Position numbers and translations under genes: made by a program | Assembly (NCBI RefSeq): GCF_028009165.1 | Contig: NC_079244.1 | Location: 1,674,001 to 1,738,000 of the forward strand | Length of the DNA stretch: 64,000 nt | Reading direction: 5' to 3' | Origin: Akanthomyces muscarius | Taxonomy: Eukaryota; Ascomycota; Sordariomycetes; Hypocreales; Cordycipitaceae | Notes under the pieces: model-generated | What the model saw: only the letters and a program-made list of their open reading frames with translations | What the model was told of the DNA's origin: nothing | Database searches by the model: none | In this document: one piece after another, positions 3,767 through 11,374 of the stretch | How positions within the stretch are numbered: position 1 is the stretch's first letter | How the letters are laid out: every line of letters starts with the position of its first letter

Positions 3767-3778
3767 CCTTGCCAGCCG
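3767..3778. repeat. Left target-site duplication
   Basis: CCTTGCCAGCCG occurs here directly outside the left inverted repeat and again at 11363-11374 outside the right one, in the same orientation. A perfect 12-bp direct repeat bounding inverted repeats is the footprint of cut-and-paste insertion. MULE duplications are usually 8-11 bp, so one or more bases may match by chance. Confidence 0.85.
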
Positions 3779-3840
3779 AGCACTAAGCTCACTGGTGGTG
3801 GTGGCGAAGCTATTGGAGGCTAGGGTGGGGCAAAAAGCGG
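3779..3840 (+). repeat. Left terminal inverted repeat
   Basis: 62 bp starting AGCACTAAGCTCACTGG and ending GGTGGGGCAAAAAGCGG. Aligned to the reverse complement of 11294-11362 it matches at about 52 of 61 positions, with one 1-bp indel and one 8-bp insertion in the right copy. Many of the mismatches are transitions. Confidence 0.9.
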
Positions 3841-4242
3841 CAGAAAAATGATTCTCTGCTGCAGATGCTCTGCATATGCAAGGTACCCGCCTTTTCACTC
3901 AAATTAGTATATGCCTCTTTGTTACTCTGATCTGAAGTTGATCTGAGCAATAGACAATGAAAAAGATCACAATGAATTCACTTCCTTTGAGATACCTCAC
4001 GTGCCCTGGCCAGTGCTTAGGAACAATTAACTCATATGCCTAGATCCTGCTCCTCTTCTCCTTTCTCTCTTCTTCATCATCATCAAATTCTGTATGCAGG
4101 CCCTGCCCCCGAAGCAAGCACCCAGCATATGCTGACTAGACAGGTAGTAGATATACAACAACTGCGCGCGCCCCCCCGCCATCATCAAAGGTAAGTTTAC
4201 CCCTGTTCCTAGAGTACACTCAGCATATGCTAACGAATGCAG

Positions 4243-5605
4243 ATGGATTCTTTCGGAAGTAAGTTTTTGTGTGGTACAATAACTTGAACATGTACTGAGC
4301 ATATGCCCAGCAACTTTCACTGACCAGGAGCTGGTCAACTGCGTTGGGGCACCCAGCGAGACAGCCCTTGGCATCCACTGCGGTAAGCACGGGTTGAGCA
4401 TATGCTCAAAGCCCACATACTAATTTTTTTCTAGGCGACATGGGCATCGAAGGCCACCACCCCCCCCTCCGTAAGCTCCCTGTCAACCGATTCCAGGCAT
4501 ATGCTGACCAATTTTCTTAGGCTCGATTCAGATCGCCAAGGTCAACACCATGGTGTAAGTAATACTGAGCATAAGCATATGCCCAGCTAATTCTCAAAAG
4601 GTGCGGCGTCAAGAACGAGCTTGGCGTCATGTGTGGCACCGTGATTGCCTTCTTGGGTGGCTCCGGCCAAGTAAGTGTTGCGCATCTTCCGGGCATATGC
4701 CGGGCTAACAAAAAAAATAGATGAAGAAGCACATCAAGACGATGCACGGCTTCGACCGTAAGTAAGCCCAAGTAAGTTCTGAGCATATGCTGACATCAGT
4801 AGCCGTTTCCTCCGGTCGGCGCAACTTGACCACCGCCGACAAGGCCACCGCCCGCCGGTAAGTAGTTTCAGGCCGATGCTGAGCATATGCTGACCCGTGA
4901 TAGCTCCCTCCTCTGGTATGTCCTCTCCCAGGAGTGGAAGAGGGCCGCCTTCCTGGACGAGCCCGGGTAAGTGAAAGAAACCGTCTGAGCATATGCTGAG
5001 CTAACAACCTCTAGTGCCGGTCCCCTTGGCGGCCCGATCCAGAAGATCGCGGATTTTCTGGAGGCCAAGGCGTGAGTAGAGAATCCTGTGCGAACAAGCT
5101 GAGCATATGCTGATTAATGTTAGTCGCGCTGATCCCGTCTGGCGCGCCGCGACCGGCGACAAGACTGGTCGTTTCCACCGCTCCCCGCCTGCTGTAAGTT
5201 TTAGTCTGAGCATATGCCGAGTACTCAAGATAATAATACTTTTTCTAGGCGCAGACCACCCCGCGCAAGCGCGGCCGCGGTGTAAGTATTAATCACTACG
5301 AACATGTACTGAGCATATGCTGACGAGTAATAGGCTGCTGTCCCGGACCGCTCCCCCTCCCCCTCCCAGGGCCCCCCCCGTAAGTATCTGAGCATATGCC
5401 CACAAGGTTCTAGGCTGACCCTCGACAAATAGCCCCGTCGAAGAAGCGCCGCCTTAACAAGGCGGCCACGGGCACCAAGGGTGCCGCCCCTGGTAAGTAG
5501 TACGCCGAGCATATGCTGACAGCATTCTGACAATCAATAGCTGCTACGCGCACCTCCACGCGCCAGGCCCAGCCTTCCAAGAAGGCTGCCGCCAACAAGG
5601 CCTGA
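4243..5605 (+). CDS. Transposon finger protein 1, 14 coding exons
   Basis: Spliced exons: 4243-4258, 4311-4382, 4435-4470, 4521-4554, 4601-4670, 4721-4757, 4803-4857, 4904-4966, 5015-5071, 5124-5193, 5249-5281, 5334-5379, 5433-5492, 5541-5605. All phases agree and give 237 aa. Two further introns (4092-4143, 4191-4242) lie in the 5' UTR; the second ends right at the ATG. Introns are 45-55 nt with GTAAGT-type donors, and each holds exactly one GCATATGC. Residues C54, C64, H80 and H85 form a C-x9-C-x15-H-x4-H finger resembling BED/C2H2 types but with unusual spacing. The C-terminal third is Pro/Lys/Arg-rich with SKKRRLNK, a likely nuclear signal. The 272-aa neighbour looks paralogous (shared V-N-T-x-x-C, C-G and H-I-K/R-T-x-H). 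Likely nuclear and DNA-binding; function is inference. Confidence 0.85.
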
Positions 5606-6218
5606 GCATATGCCCAGCCTTTCCTCGGGACTTGGACAGTTTTTTGCTTTGTTGTTTTCGTGAATTTCAGGAGGGTGCTCAGCATATGCTGAGAGGCAGG
5701 CGGCGATGTTTTTGTTCCCGGCAAGCAGACCGGAAGGATACCCTCGGCATATGCCGAAAAATAAAAAGTCATTTCCCAATCTTTTCTGTCCCTCATGTGC
5801 ATGTTGTGAGCATATGCCGAGAGATTTAAACGGCTACAGGCTGCCAGCTGCGCCTAGCTAGCGTAAGGCAGGCAGGCTACCCTACAGACCGCGCGGCGAG
5901 GCAGTCAACTTTTTTTCGGCATATGCTGAAATTCCAGAGCGCAATACAGCCTCCGGCAGGCAGTCGTTTTTTCGGCATATGCTGAAATTCCAATACATAA
6001 TACGGGCTAGTAGCGGGCAGGCAGCCCCTGGACACTTACTAGGTTATTTCGTAATCTAGCATATGCTCGCTATAAGTTATGCTTACTATAAAGATATTTC
6101 TATGCGGAGGAAAAATGCGTAAGCTATGGATTAATAATAATCCGTCCCGCCTAGTATAGAAATTAATCAGGCATATACCCCTCTTCCTCCTTACATCTTC
6201 TACTGAGATTCCTGTAAG
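5606..6218. other. Non-coding spacer inside transposon, 7 motif copies
   Basis: No gene seen. GCATATGC occurs at 5606 (immediately after the stop codon of the first finger gene), 5682, 5747, 5810, 5919, 5975 and 6059. The spacer should contain the 3' end of the first finger gene and the promoter of the second. Confidence 0.7.
5901..5992 (+). repeat. Short direct repeats around GCATATGC
   Basis: Two near-identical copies (5901-5936 and 5960-5992) read GCAGTC, a T-rich run, then CGGCATATGCTGAAATTCCA. They suggest local duplication of a motif-carrying unit, one way the octamer could multiply inside the element. Confidence 0.8.
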
Positions 6219-7293
6219 ATGGCGCGACAACTTCTATTAGAGTATACAGATATTGATGTGATAAATGCATCAAATCCATCAAAGTTTGGCTTCCATCATG
6301 GTCAGAATATTTATATCACTTTATCAGCATATGCTAACTCTATTTTAGGACCAGTTGAGAAGAAAAACACACAAATTCTCTCCCGTGTCAACACACACAT
6401 TTGTGATATTATTGTCAACAGTACTGGCAGAATGTGTGGAAGGGTATATACTGAGAATGTGAATGTAGGTGGCCTAACATATGCCAGGCGCTTGCTAGGG
6501 ATATACTTATCAAATACTTTAGTTTTATCGTCACATTCGAACAGCACATCCCTACCATATCCGCCTCCCAAATAAGGCGAATATATCAGACGAAGAACGC
6601 CTAATTGGAGAGAAGTAAGTATTCTTTTAGAATAGACGTGACATATGCTTACACTTAGTAGTACTATTCGCGCCTGGGTTCTCAATGGCGGTTGGCGTGA
6701 TGCTCGGTACCAGCGTGAGCCAAAAAACCTACCAAAGACCTCATTTTTATATAAGGTAGCGACTGAGCTTGAGTATCTTGCGTAGGTATCTACTATTCAT
6801 ATTATACGCATATGCTAATAATCTTATAGCCAACAAGACCTAGCATTTGCACAGAAATATGGTAGACAATTCCATCGTTCAAGTTTCCGACAGATGTTGT
6901 TCGAAAATACATTCAACACACCGTGTGCATATGCTCACGGTGTGCCAGTCTCTCCCACATTAGATCCTACAACCACACGATCAGAGCGGGATCAAACCAG
7001 CATATGCTCAGACAACGGTCAACCAGACACCACAATTAACACAGACTCCTCACTTGAGGACACAGCCAGAATGTACACAGCTAGCAGTCAGCATATGCCT
7101 GAGGATATTACCTCTACAGAGTCCGTGATAAGAGTTAATAAGTCGCAGAGCATATGCTACGCAACTACTTCACCTAAAAAGACTACCCGGGCTTTACAAA
7201 AGTTATCACAAGTAAGCCACTTAGCATTTTCCTAGCATATACTTATTTAATATCTAATTTTCAATCTAGCGTAAAAAAACGAAAAAAAACTAG
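6219..7293 (+). CDS. Transposon finger protein 2
   Basis: Exons 6219-6300, 6349-6464, 6523-6614, 6659-6781 (or 6662), 6830-7211, 7270-7293 give 272 aa with consistent phases. All five introns carry GCATATGC or a one-base variant (exact at 6327 and 6808; variants at 6477, 6641, 7235). C46, C57, H70 and H75 make a C-x10-C-x12-H-x4-H finger, matching the first finger protein around V-N-T-x-x-C and H-I-R-T-A-H. A conserved block with GGWRDARYQ follows, then a Thr/Ser-rich tail with four exonic motif copies, ending in a basic RKKTKKN tail. The second intron donor was set at GTAGGT because it gives canonical finger spacing. Probably a nuclear DNA-binding accessory of the transposon. Confidence 0.75.
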
Positions 7294-7338
7294 CTTATTC
7301 TTTTTTCCTTTCCTATATATAAATTAGTTAAGTATCTT

Positions 7339-10300
7339 TTAAAACTCTCTTAAGCATATACCTTGTCTGAGTCTTTGACACTTTTCTTTTATATGTTGAA
7401 TATCCTCTTGAATAAGATCTTTATACTCCTCTCTGACCACCTTCTGCTGTAGAAGAAGTGCAGAAATCTCAGCATCATCAAATTGATCTATCTCTGGCAT
7501 ATGCCGGGGCCGTTTTGGTCGTAGAGATATCTGAGAAATTGATGGTAGTGAGCACGTTGCTGATGAGCTAGAGCGATCCCGTTTTTGTTGTTGTGGTGTT
7601 TTTGGTTCCTAGAGAAAGTTAGTCCTGGGAATATGCCTATATTATGTCTATTACTTACTGGTTTACAATCTGCATCAGTAATTGGTCTAATACGGCTTGG
7701 TGTTAAAGCTCTTATACTGATGATTGATAGATCATCATCCTGGCATATGCCCGCGGCTGGGACTGTAGATAGATCGATTGTTTCCAACTGATCACTATCT
7801 AACAGGCTATTAAGCTCAATTACAGTCATATGCCTAACTAGTGCTGGTGCTGTGAGAGGCTCTAGTAATGCAGTTGATGCCCCATCGGTTTTGGGCGTAT
7901 GCCTACCGACTGCCGAGGAGGGCCGGGGCGTACCTGTCCCCTGTATTTGCGGATATGCCGGTTGTTGTGCAGGCATATGCTCCGCCAATGTCTGCACATC
8001 TTCTTGTGGTATATTTTGTGGTGATGGAGTAGGTGGTGTTATACGTGTATTCTCGGCATCATATAGGCCTACGTTGTTGGCCTGTATTGTGTGTTGTGAC
8101 GAAGAGATTGCCGGCATGTGCCCAGAACCTGTTGAGGACGGGGGCTCAGAGGGTTGCAAGGATCTTTGTGGGACAGGAGTTGTTGGTGTATCGGAGGCAT
8201 ATGCTGACGCAGGGCTTGAGCCTTCGGGTCGAACATGGTAGGGATTCCGTGGGTTAAGGGGTAGGTTTGGCTGAGAGATACGTCGATCTTGCGCTATGCG
8301 ATTAGTAGTATCTCGTCGAAGATATGCTCGGCTTATGCGGGCAACAGGCCCTCGATTATGCCATGTTACTGCTACTCCTAGGTCTGTTTGTGTTTGGACC
8401 TTGAAGCATTTCTCCAGCACATGCTGACGTAGCCCTAGGATACCTGATAGTAGGCTGCGGTGCTGTCCTACAGCAGAGTAGTCTTCCCAATGGCCACTCT
8501 CTGCGATATTCGTATTCTTCTGAGCATATAATCGCCATTTTGGAGGCACCTTTGAGGCACTTGCAATAAGCCCAGCAACAACCCAGGGAGCTGTTTTTGC
8601 TTTAAACCAACTTGCTCTCTCAGGGTGTGCCTCAATAAGCTGACGTACTTCCTCATTATAGATCTCAGCAGATGGTGAGTCTAGGAGCGACATATATGTA
8701 TACTCATCAGGAGCATCAGGATGGTTATGTCGCCAGTTCCGTTGGACATGTACCTGGCAGAAGATAAGCACATGCTCTAAATGTTCTTGCCAGGTCCATC
8801 GTGAATCAAGACTTTGTAAGTAATTGCCAAGTCCTAATGATATTAGCTATATTCTCCGTATATGCTGTGTAGCTGCTCACCATGTGCTTGCTTCCCATCC
8901 ATATCTGTCGTCACTGTATAGAACATAGGAGGAGGTCTTCCGTGTGGCATATGCTCGAGATGGTGCCAGCGTATGCTAAAGCCACCAATGTCACCAAGCC
9001 ACCGAAACATTGCTGCGAACATCTATTTAGATCAGTAGTGTCCTGGGTATATGCTGGGCACTTACTTACATCAGTGTATGCCTCTGTAGTTGTGATTGTT
9101 GTTATAGCATAAATATATGTTTCGCGAACTAGATATGTAGGTTAGAGATAGGTATTATCTGGACTGGGCATATGCTTACGATTAGAAGTGTCATTCCAGC
9201 TTGAGATGCTAAGAATATTTGCTTTCCCTCGAATCATCTTAAAAGATAGATCAATTTGTATACATCTTGCCTTCTGAGCAGCAGAAGCCTGGCTTTTTGA
9301 GCATATGATGATCCAATACTCAGAGCCGTAGAATTTGATCTCACGTATCCATTGCTGGTTTGGCTCACGGATTTGGTCAAGGCAGAATTCTCGTTGTACA
9401 CCTAGCATGGTTAGGACATATGCCCACAACATTCTAAATAGCACTTACCTGCAATATCATTACCCTCAGGGTATTTAAGGAATCGTGCACGTATAAGTAT
9501 TGCATGTATTTTATCCTCACAATTCAATGCTGGGTGGATGCTCCGAATATTCTTAGCCTTATACTTTTTAAGGAATTCATTAAGTAAAGGGCTTAAAAAT
9601 ATTTTCCCTATAGGGTATGTTATTAGCATATGCTTTAAATAGTATAGAATAATACTTACGAGCAGTTAGATATAATAAATCATCTCGCTCAGAGAGGGCA
9701 TAAATAAGATGTTTAAGAATATCTTGTGGTATGTTTTTTGGTGGCGGTGGAACGTGGGTATGGACGTCGCGTGTGCTGAGCATATACCAAGGGAAACGGC
9801 GGTTATTAATTGGTATGTAGACGTCAAATTTAACACGGCAACTGTGTGGACGTAGGCGGGATATATCCTTATGCTGAAATACTATATATTATTAGCATAT
9901 GCTCACTCTACATTCTATATATTCTTATCACTTACCACAGTCCTTTCTCCGTGTATTTGAGGCATCCCAAAAAGAGCAAGTATCGCGTAGAGGCTCCTCG
10001 GGCTCGTGTAACCCATACTCGACCATATGCTGAAGATATGCTAGGTCAATATTACCAATAACAACTCGGAGCTGTGTGTGCTGACAGGCCTCATTCGATG
10101 TTTGTGGACAGCCAATAAAGTACTGCCCGTCAGTCTGGACCCAGGTCATTAGTTGCTCTTCGCAGCATATGCCTGGTAGACTCTCAGGGTCTTCTGATAC
10201 AGGGAGTAGCCGACAAGGGCGTCGTGAACTATCCCATATCTTCTTATATGCCAGGTATGCTGCTTCCGTCTTCATTCGTGTGCGTTCGTCAATCTCCATG

Positions 10301-11016
10301 GTATCAATACTTGTGGCATATGTTTGGCGTATGCGGCCAATATTCTCTGGGTTAAAACCATTATTCCAGTCGTCTTGGTAGGTTATAAGATCTTGCTTGA
10401 TTTTTGAGCAGACTCGTATTCCAGTGCATTTGAAGGCCATATGCCAGCACTGTGCCTGCGCTCCTTTTCCAAGCATCTGCTCCCTATCTCTAGTCAGTAT
10501 ATGCTCAGCATCTGCACACTTGAAGAATTTACTCACAAGAATACCAGAGAAACAGTTGTGCATTTGCCAACCCGAGTTGAACCAAACTGTACCTAGTAGA
10601 TAGTGAGCATAGCACTGGCATATGCCCAGTATTACTTACAATACTCATTTGCTCTTGTATGAAGTTTGTCACTTCCTCAACCTTATCGCCAGCATATGTC
10701 GGGGATATATTTGGTATAATATATACCAATCCATCCATCGATGCTTTTGGATAGCTTGGAAGAGCAATGCAATCAATCACTTTGCGAACGCTCACAGCAC
10801 GCGCTCCGCGCCCACTGAGCATAAGCCCAGACTCTTCAATAATCTCTTTCGGGATATTAAAAAAGCTTGTAGGGTCATCGTCTTCGAGAGTGTTGGCGAA
10901 TAGGTCCTTGATGTTGTTAGCATATGCCCAGAGCCTTATTAGGGTATTCTTACCTCATTATGCTGAAACAGCTGCCCCCAAGGGTTCACCGCGCTTGACT
11001 CTGGTGATGACATCAT
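7339..11016 (-). CDS. MULE-type DDE transposase, 11 exons
   Basis: Exons, 5' to 3': 11016-10954, 10906-10640, 10592-10537, 10489-9936, 9881-9660, 9607-9449, 9401-9180, 9128-9070, 9022-8881, 8833-7659, 7608-7339. All phases agree and give 1062 aa. The catalytic core shows D491 (in IDLSFKMIRG), D574 (in VTTDMDGKQ), C607-x2-H610 (FCQVH) and E693 (in NTNIAESGH), the Mutator-like DDE order in an RNase H fold. The first 440 residues are Cys/His-rich in places and may bind the ends. From about 770 the chain is a Pro/Ser/Thr-rich low-complexity tail with repeated HMP, AYA and GIC peptides, ending in a charged helix. The ten introns are 47-54 nt and each holds GCATATGC (5) or a one-base variant (5). 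The 3' end converges on the second finger gene with 45 bp between stop codons. Confidence 0.88.
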
Positions 11017-11293
11017 GTAATAATATTGAAGTTGATTTTTGTTGTGTGTGATAATAGCATATGTATGGCATATGCGAGGCTTATGTGCTTTATCATTTTT
11101 CTCCTTGTTATCTCTTCACTCAATTTTCTGACCGTCTTTTGCGCCATAGCATGAGAATTCTTCTACACCGTATTTATGGCCGGGGGCATATGCAGAGCTG
11201 GCTGCCGGCATATGCATGGCGTATGCAGATGAGCTTTCCGACAAGCGCACAGTACGTCCATTGCATATGCATTGCATATGCGGTCAAGACTCA
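11017..11293 (-). promoter_or_regulatory. Transposase upstream region, motif-dense
   Basis: The interval between the transposase start and the right inverted repeat has five exact GCATATGC copies (11068, 11186, 11208, 11263, 11274) plus variants such as GCATATGT at 11057. The last two lie 11 bp apart. It must contain the transposase promoter. A regulatory role for the motif here is inference from density. Confidence 0.5.
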
Positions 11294-11362
11294 CCGCTTT
11301 TTGCCTTTTTGCCCCACCTGAACCTTCAATAGCTTTACGACCACCACCAGTGAGCTAGTCCC
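11294..11362 (-). repeat. Right terminal inverted repeat
   Basis: 69 bp, read on the minus strand from 11362: GGGACTAGCTCACTGG inward to CGG at 11294. It equals the left repeat except for scattered substitutions, a 1-bp indel and a tandem duplication of the 8-mer GCAAAAAG that lengthens it. Confidence 0.9.
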
Positions 11363-11374
11363 CCTTGCCAGCCG
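11363..11374. repeat. Right target-site duplication
   Basis: Second copy of CCTTGCCAGCCG, directly abutting the right end of the element, identical to 3767-3778. Confidence 0.85.

Follow-up and report, generated by a model that had tools for sequence, protein, structure and literature searches.

The octamer GCATATGC is distributed over the whole length of element A, a Mutator-like transposon of 7587 bp at positions 3778-11364 of the analysed window (64,000 nucleotides of Akanthomyces muscarius contig NC_079244.1). The element harbors two finger genes (genes 1 and 2) and one transposase gene. All 45 exact octamers of the 64-kb window (1.4 expected) are located within it, between 3872 and 11281; about 0.3 would be expected in its 7.6 kb. 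GCATATGC is probably (about 0.6) the core of a binding-site system that belongs to the transposon itself, operates at the DNA level and would be read by an element-encoded protein for marking or anti-silencing, rather than an element of introns. From the distribution, palindromy and 11-bp register of the sites, from a different motif in a second family (element B) and from introns common to both families in which the motif has been switched, we infer a binder, a purpose and the action of selection.

Twenty-two exact octamers fall into introns (1515 nt, 14.5 per kb), 10 into exons (4701 nt, 2.1 per kb) and 13 into other noncoding DNA (1371 nt, 9.5 per kb). The density in introns is near that of the other noncoding DNA, and the octamer is not an intron motif. 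The 23 of 45 exact sites outside introns, the 10 exonic ones among them, had gone unmentioned in the preliminary description of this DNA, which dealt with the intronic sites. Six exact octamers lie in transposase exons (7497, 7743, 7973, 8197, 8947 and 10165; 7497-10172 in the site map), where sites within one mismatch number 25 against 2.5 expected. The long tail exon of gene 2 (6830-7211, forward strand) contains four, at 6927, 7000, 7091 and 7150. Another seven are mapped between genes 1 and 2 (5606, 5682, 5747, 5810, 5919, 5975 and 6059; 5606-6066). The exonic octamers are translated in each of the three frames, giving AYA, IC or HM peptides, and the sites spread over the entire element; the requirement would therefore lie at the DNA level. 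Sites within one mismatch follow each other at a mean spacing of 93 bp with a coefficient of variation (CV) of 0.57, compared with 0.98 for random sites, and none of 5000 random placements was as even. Away from the element ends, the octamer forms the centre of an extended palindrome, TNR-GCATATGC-YNA, with a pyrimidine directly adjoining it in 76 of 78 arms. The genome (36.2 Mb) contains 831 exact octamers, 227 of them in five intact A copies (45-46 per copy) and 604 elsewhere.

The three A genes were modelled by hand from open reading frames and splice sites, with the octamer positions known beforehand. The rebuilt genes bear out the earlier count that all 30 modelled introns carry the octamer, which is exact in 22 and has one base changed in 8. 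Sliding the site map round the element matched a mean of 12.5 and a maximum of 21 introns, and none of 1077 shifts reached 30. The octamer had been described as usually residing in the 3′ half of the intron and often running into the branch site. The position holds for 20 of the 30 introns; overlap with a CTNAN branch-site candidate occurs in some introns only. In gene 1, sites are present in 15 of 15 introns and in no exon. The tails of genes 1 and 2, which align poorly, reach an equal number of sites by two means, four octamer-bearing introns in gene 1 and one long exon with the four exact octamers in gene 2. Selection seems to act on site density along the DNA and not on introns per se. The earlier proposal that introns are kept as neutral places for the motif would fit the finger-1 genes, whose sites are intronic only in both families, and falls short where density along the DNA, not the introns, seems selected. 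As a phenomenon secondary to an element-wide site system, it is largely supported.

Element B, reached via a weak transposase match, is 5.85 kb long and is represented by two copies (L035 and L036, 99.5% identical), both with 9-bp duplications read from the flanks. Its terminal inverted repeats (TIRs) comprise 44 nt at 89% and 29 nt at 93% identity. It encodes two finger proteins and a transposase with 25% identity to that of A. A scan of element B found no GCATATGC. It contains another palindrome, GAATYRATTC, at 30 sites (9 or 10 of 10 bases matching; 1.7 expected). This motif is present in 14 of 18 modelled introns (finger gene 1, 6/6; transposase, 8/12); shifted site maps matched a mean of 3.4 and a maximum of 9 introns, and 0 of 829 shifts reached 14. 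The five exons of B finger gene 1 that were checked contain no motif. A tblastn search with the B transposase yielded no third family.

Introns were compared between the aligned A and B transposases, with 9 A introns in the aligned part and 12 B introns. Two introns occupy the same column in the same phase (P 0.001 by chance). Three more have the same phase within 1-7 columns, the wider offsets lying in gapped regions, and the chance of five within seven columns is P 0.0003. These five common introns carry the A octamer in A (four exact, one with one base off) and the B motif in B (9-10 of 10). The same introns hold different motifs in the two families, and the present motif therefore did not create them. 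Most simply, the common introns would predate the present motifs, and the sites have been replaced within them.

Sites of both families are accompanied by fainter ones in an 11-bp register. The mean match to the family's own motif was scored at offsets of 8 to 60 from each site. The best three offsets in A were 11, 22 and 33, in that order (3.26, 2.90 and 2.48; background 2.00), and the same three offsets in the same order were the best in B (6.32, 4.85 and 3.92; background 3.26). All seven B site pairs within 60 bp are spaced at multiples of 11 bp, and A contains six pairs at 11 bp against 0.85 expected. In both families, the mean base composition 11 bp away from a site weakly resembles the motif. 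At the right end of A, the site map shows pairs at 11 or 22 bp (11057/11068, 11186/11208, 11208/11219 and 11263/11274; 11057-11281).

A homologue search with residues 440-740 of the A transposase retrieved P0002 and P0003, which are known from protein sequence alone. They are 43 and 40% identical to the A transposase over these residues. All 256 palindromic octamers were ranked by their encodability in these two proteins relative to shuffled proteins. GCATATGC ranked first with 17 encodable sites (1.5 expected), followed by an octamer with 10 (2.1 expected). Near the conserved NPLNP, the three transposases read AYA or HMP by eye, apparently the same octamer in different frames. The peptides of P0002 and P0003 point to this octamer. 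The gene 1 protein contains no octamer-type peptide, in line with its octamer-free exons.

Palindromic sites with degenerate partners 11, 22 and 33 bp away would fit protein dimers bound side by side. Eleven bases correspond to about one helical turn, and neighbouring dimers would therefore sit on one face of the helix. The finger proteins have one C-x8-10-C...H-x3-4-H finger per chain. Within each family, the two proteins resemble each other (A, 27% identity over 164 residues; B, 29%; E about 1e-11), so genes 1 and 2 are paralogous. A comparison of the finger proteins between A and B gave no detectable match (lowest E 0.29), while the transposases still match (E 4.9e-7). The fingers thus diverge along with the motif, and the element's own finger-protein pair would therefore be the likeliest binder. 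In analogy to VANC proteins of plant transposons, these proteins would keep the element open against host silencing. An anti-silencing or self-activating role appears likeliest, followed by a role in transposition. The introns would represent old slots free of coding constraint, in which sites are kept or re-made by selection following the specificity of the family. More tentatively, and at somewhat less than even odds, each family may write its own palindromic address in an 11-bp register along its entire DNA, read by its own finger pair and replaced wholesale when the specificity changes. The address would reside in old introns and also in coding exons, and homologous introns of the two families would thereby bear different addresses; it would form an independent fungal counterpart of VANC.

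Several observations weigh against this interpretation. Exact sites alone are no more evenly spaced than by chance (CV 0.86, P 0.22). The 11-bp excess in A is modest when all distances tried are considered (P 0.008 for any distance reaching six pairs). In a heavily mutated A copy, L034, CpA sites within octamers are changed at least as often as other CpA sites (88/92, compared with 84.8% overall). A palindrome of 14 bp is long for a protein with a single finger, so that dimerisation has to be supposed. Of the 12 transposase introns of B, 4 are without a 9-of-10 site; at a threshold of 8 of 10, the motif is found in 9 of 12, and 13 of 829 shifts score as high. The 18 modelled B introns are those of finger gene 1 and the transposase gene. 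Gene models of A and B were all built manually with prior knowledge of the motifs, and the comparison comprises two families and two relatives represented by protein alone.

Among other explanations, the sites may have a role in transposition, in which either the transposase or one of the finger proteins would coat the element and join its ends, and internal sites would mark intact elements. Both ends have octamers in their outermost 100 bp or so, paired at 11 bp (3861/3872 and 11263/11274), and the copies moved recently, as their five target duplications indicate. However, the end sites are devoid of the pyrimidine flank of the internal sites, known subterminal repeats are confined to element ends, and the sites in coding exons and in every intron would be left unexplained; this role is considered unlikely, though it ranks second. 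A host factor might be the reader, for instance a basic helix-loop-helix (bHLH) protein that recognises the palindromic E-box CATATG and would let the element be expressed at an opportune moment. Against this, the second family of this host has a different motif, GAATYRATTC; the 604 of the 831 genomic octamers outside the five intact copies would be costly to such a reader, and host sites would require no 11-bp register. A host target is quite improbable. Less probable still is a splicing signal that supplies or helps the branch site. GCATATGCTGAC and GCATATGCTAAC include a branch site of the fungal type and the octamer overlaps a branch-site candidate in some introns, yet 23 of 45 exact sites reside outside introns, several introns have a separate candidate closer to the acceptor, the core is palindromic, and B introns carry another motif.

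The preliminary description had also considered an introner-like origin, in which insertions of a short sequence with the motif gave rise to the introns. The octamer is common to every modelled intron, and gene 1 has 13 coding introns compared with 5 in its paralogue. With octamer and splice sites masked, however, the introns barely exceed shuffled introns in similarity (mean pair score 4.06, compared with 3.80-3.98 over 12 shufflings), and exons and intergenic DNA are rich in the motif as well. Some introns are common to genes 1 and 2, others to families A and B, where B carries a different motif. This origin is hardly credible, although introns found only in gene 1 may have arisen by insertion. 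Neutral repetition by slippage or gene conversion, without function, is supported by an octamer-bearing 56-bp tandem unit (about 5912-5967, from copy comparison) that varies in number among A copies and is single in copies L001 and L004. The flanks of the sites differ, their spacing is even, and exonic sites occur in three frames; the octamer is indicated in relatives at 33-35% identity, and B has a parallel motif. Neutral repetition is scarcely to be expected on these grounds.

The self-recognition system proposed here can be compared with known systems. According to the available parts of two reports on the VANDAL transposons of Arabidopsis, VANC proteins bind a short family-specific motif, also in introns, and remove silent marks; the motif is YAGTATTAY in VANDAL21, with AGTTGTCC and AGTTGTAC in VANDAL6, the introns of VANB21 and VANC21 are among the motif-bearing regions, and tandem repeats change the number of sites (PMC5735166, PMC10398659). 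As far as described there, the fungal elements share with VANDALs the Mutator superfamily, accessory genes, a motif that is dense in its own family, sparse elsewhere and different between families, intronic sites, and changes in site number by tandem repeats. They differ in a motif that is palindromic, has 11-bp partners and occurs in coding exons and every modelled A intron, and that is indicated in relatives at 33-35% identity. Their accessory genes encode finger proteins, match no Pfam family and are not of the VANC type, and anti-silencing is proposed by analogy.

In the available part of a survey of fungal Mutator-like elements, Hop and Mutyl among them, several groups have 9-bp duplications, TIRs reach up to about 100 bp and the transposase is of the DDE type, all as in A, and some groups have a C2H2 finger or a second open reading frame; by contrast, the scanned parts of the A and B transposases have no Pfam match, PF10551 included, and this part of the survey mentions no dispersed internal motif (PMC6446971). 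Introners, as far as described in the available source, likewise comprise many short introns sharing a sequence, but the likeness in A is restricted to the octamer, does not run end to end, and recurs outside introns (PMC9860276). A search of the open-licence full-text literature for the octamer gave, among the matches listed, none on transposons by title. Among the matches listed for introners, fungal Mutator-like elements and fungal anti-silencing, no report of such a motif was found, and a literature search for 11-bp periodicity in repeat-induced mutation found none. Spm/CACTA and Ac/Ds transposons have short repeated subterminal sites bound by an element protein. The sites in A resemble these in being short and repeated and differ in spanning the whole element. 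To our knowledge, sequence-specific self-recognition by transposons is known only from the plant VANDALs.

The two families constitute a natural experiment, as two related transposons in one fungus have the same gene plan, several introns in common and two private motifs. Each has its own finger-gene pair, which makes the co-evolution of DNA-binding proteins and element sequence directly testable. If the proposed role is correct, sequence-specific self-recognition of transposons would have arisen again in fungi, where repeat-induced mutation adds pressure. Introns and coding exons would then have been shaped over long times by a DNA-binding need unrelated to splicing or protein. The motif-peptide test can search for such elements in protein databases alone.

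The boundaries of element A were obtained by copy comparison and from the flanks, and exceed the span of 4092-10953 given in the preliminary description. The target-site duplication TTGCCAGCC is read from the flanks at 3769-3777 (left) and 11365-11373 (right). Two TIRs of about 100 bp match each other at 78-79%: the left one (3778-3880, forward strand) has an octamer at 3872, and the right one (11262-11364, reverse strand) has octamers at 11263 and 11274. Family A comprises five intact copies at five sites, about 99.6-99.95% identical, one of which is the window copy. Its own 9-bp target duplication flanks each of six full-length copies, the mutated L034 included. A 278-bp left-end fragment of the family (L046, G000:C10:1225946-1226128; 99%) and a lone diverged TIR (L047, G000:C11:330751-330842; 79%) were also found.

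In the A transposase, D491, D574, C607-x2-H610 and E693 are invariant in all four aligned sequences and are predicted to form a catalytic DDE triad with a C/H motif. The element thus combines a 9-bp duplication (8-11 bp allowed for Mutator-like elements, MULEs), long TIRs and a putative DDE triad with C/H motif. A Pfam scan at E 10 gave no match, PF10551 (MULE) included, for residues 1-728 of the A transposase or for P0002; P0003 had one unrelated match at E 2 and no MULE profile, and residues 1-682 of the B transposase had no Pfam match at E 10. Because their transposases match no MULE transposase profile, A and B are classified as MULE-like only and placed in no named group. In this genome, four stretches of 9.9 kb that surround Pfam MULE domains, untrimmed to elements, contain no GCATATGC, and their most enriched palindromes have only 2-6 copies.

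The full-length A copy in L034 (L034:1284-8870; G000:C1:6921783-6929369) differs from the window copy by 1373 substitutions. G>A or C>T changes account for 1359 of these, mostly at CpA and CpG (84.8% of CpA and 61.5% of CpG changed). The pattern is the signature of repeat-induced point mutation as judged from the substitutions, and is heavy beside five nearly untouched copies. A protection of octamers from repeat-induced mutation was considered and is not seen in L034, where octamers are mutated as much or more. Copies L002 and L003, which have different target duplications, share 24 C>T/G>A differences in the equivalent of window positions 8573-11259 and carry stops in transposase exons. Apparently, a copy with light mutation was subsequently mobilised with the help of another copy. 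At the edge of the octamer in transposase intron 6 (window 9415-9416), the window copy differs, and the other four intact copies are exact. In the B transposase gene, a 20-bp tandem duplication is located in an intron (L035:5570-5622), and, judging by the displaced sites, L036 probably lacks one of the units.

Gene 1 (4243-5605, forward strand) encodes a finger protein (C-x9-C...H-x4-H) of 237 residues in the hand model and is deposited as LMH87_011223 (P0001; 240 residues). The genome was annotated by BRAKER2 with RNA-seq as evidence, according to the available part of its report (PMC10323777). Apart from its first five residues and a two-residue difference at one junction, the deposited protein equals the model; by this comparison, 12 of the 13 coding introns agree, and one acceptor lies 6 nt further on. 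The 15 introns (4092-5540) include two in the 5′ untranslated region (UTR), 4092-4139 and 4191-4242, each with an exact octamer; both are unsupported because the deposited start falls inside the first. The 13 coding introns each carry an exact octamer (4259-4310, 4383-4434, 4471-4520, 4555-4600, 4671-4720, 4758-4802, 4858-4903, 4967-5014, 5072-5123, 5194-5248, 5282-5333, 5380-5432 and 5493-5540).

Gene 2 (6219-7293, forward strand) encodes a finger protein of 265 residues. Its five introns (6301-7269) carry an exact octamer (6301-6348 and 6782-6829) or one with one base off (6444-6522, 6615-6658 and 7212-7269). Three introns of genes 1 and 2 share alignment column and phase, a coincidence not equalled in 20000 random placements, and a fourth has the same phase at a shifted gap. 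The octamer is present in all four of them in either gene, two of the gene 2 introns having the form with one base changed. The transposase gene (7339-11016, reverse strand) encodes 1062 residues. Its 10 introns (7609-10953) contain an exact octamer (10907-10953, 10593-10639, 9882-9935, 9608-9659 and 9129-9179) or one with one base off (10490-10536, 9402-9448, 9023-9069, 8834-8880 and 7609-7658). P0002 and P0003 align across the junctions of introns 2 to 9 (8 of 10).

No Pfam family scored above its cut-off for gene 1, gene 2 or one open frame of B finger gene 2. Homologue searches with gene 1 returned only its own deposited protein, and words from the first 500 transposase residues gave no match. 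No relatives were found in the viral contigs searched, and a PDB sequence search gave no match better than E 0.2. The predicted structure of P0002 with P0003 had a mean pLDDT (predicted local distance difference test) of 33 and was uninformative.

Octamer pairs 60-90 bp apart number 60 on the forward strand of the genome and, among the matches listed, occur at only two places outside the copies. Twelve stretches of IMG/VR contigs (L049-L060) contain three GCATATGC at steps of 73-103 bp; the densest, L060, has 8 octamers in 1.4 kb at 22% GC. These are perhaps unrelated repeats. By eye, the exons of the finger-1 gene are GC-rich in both families (window 4243-5605; L035:1639-2600), and finger gene 2 and the transposase gene look AT-rich in both. 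The finger-1 gene possibly has a different origin from the finger-2 and transposase genes within one element.

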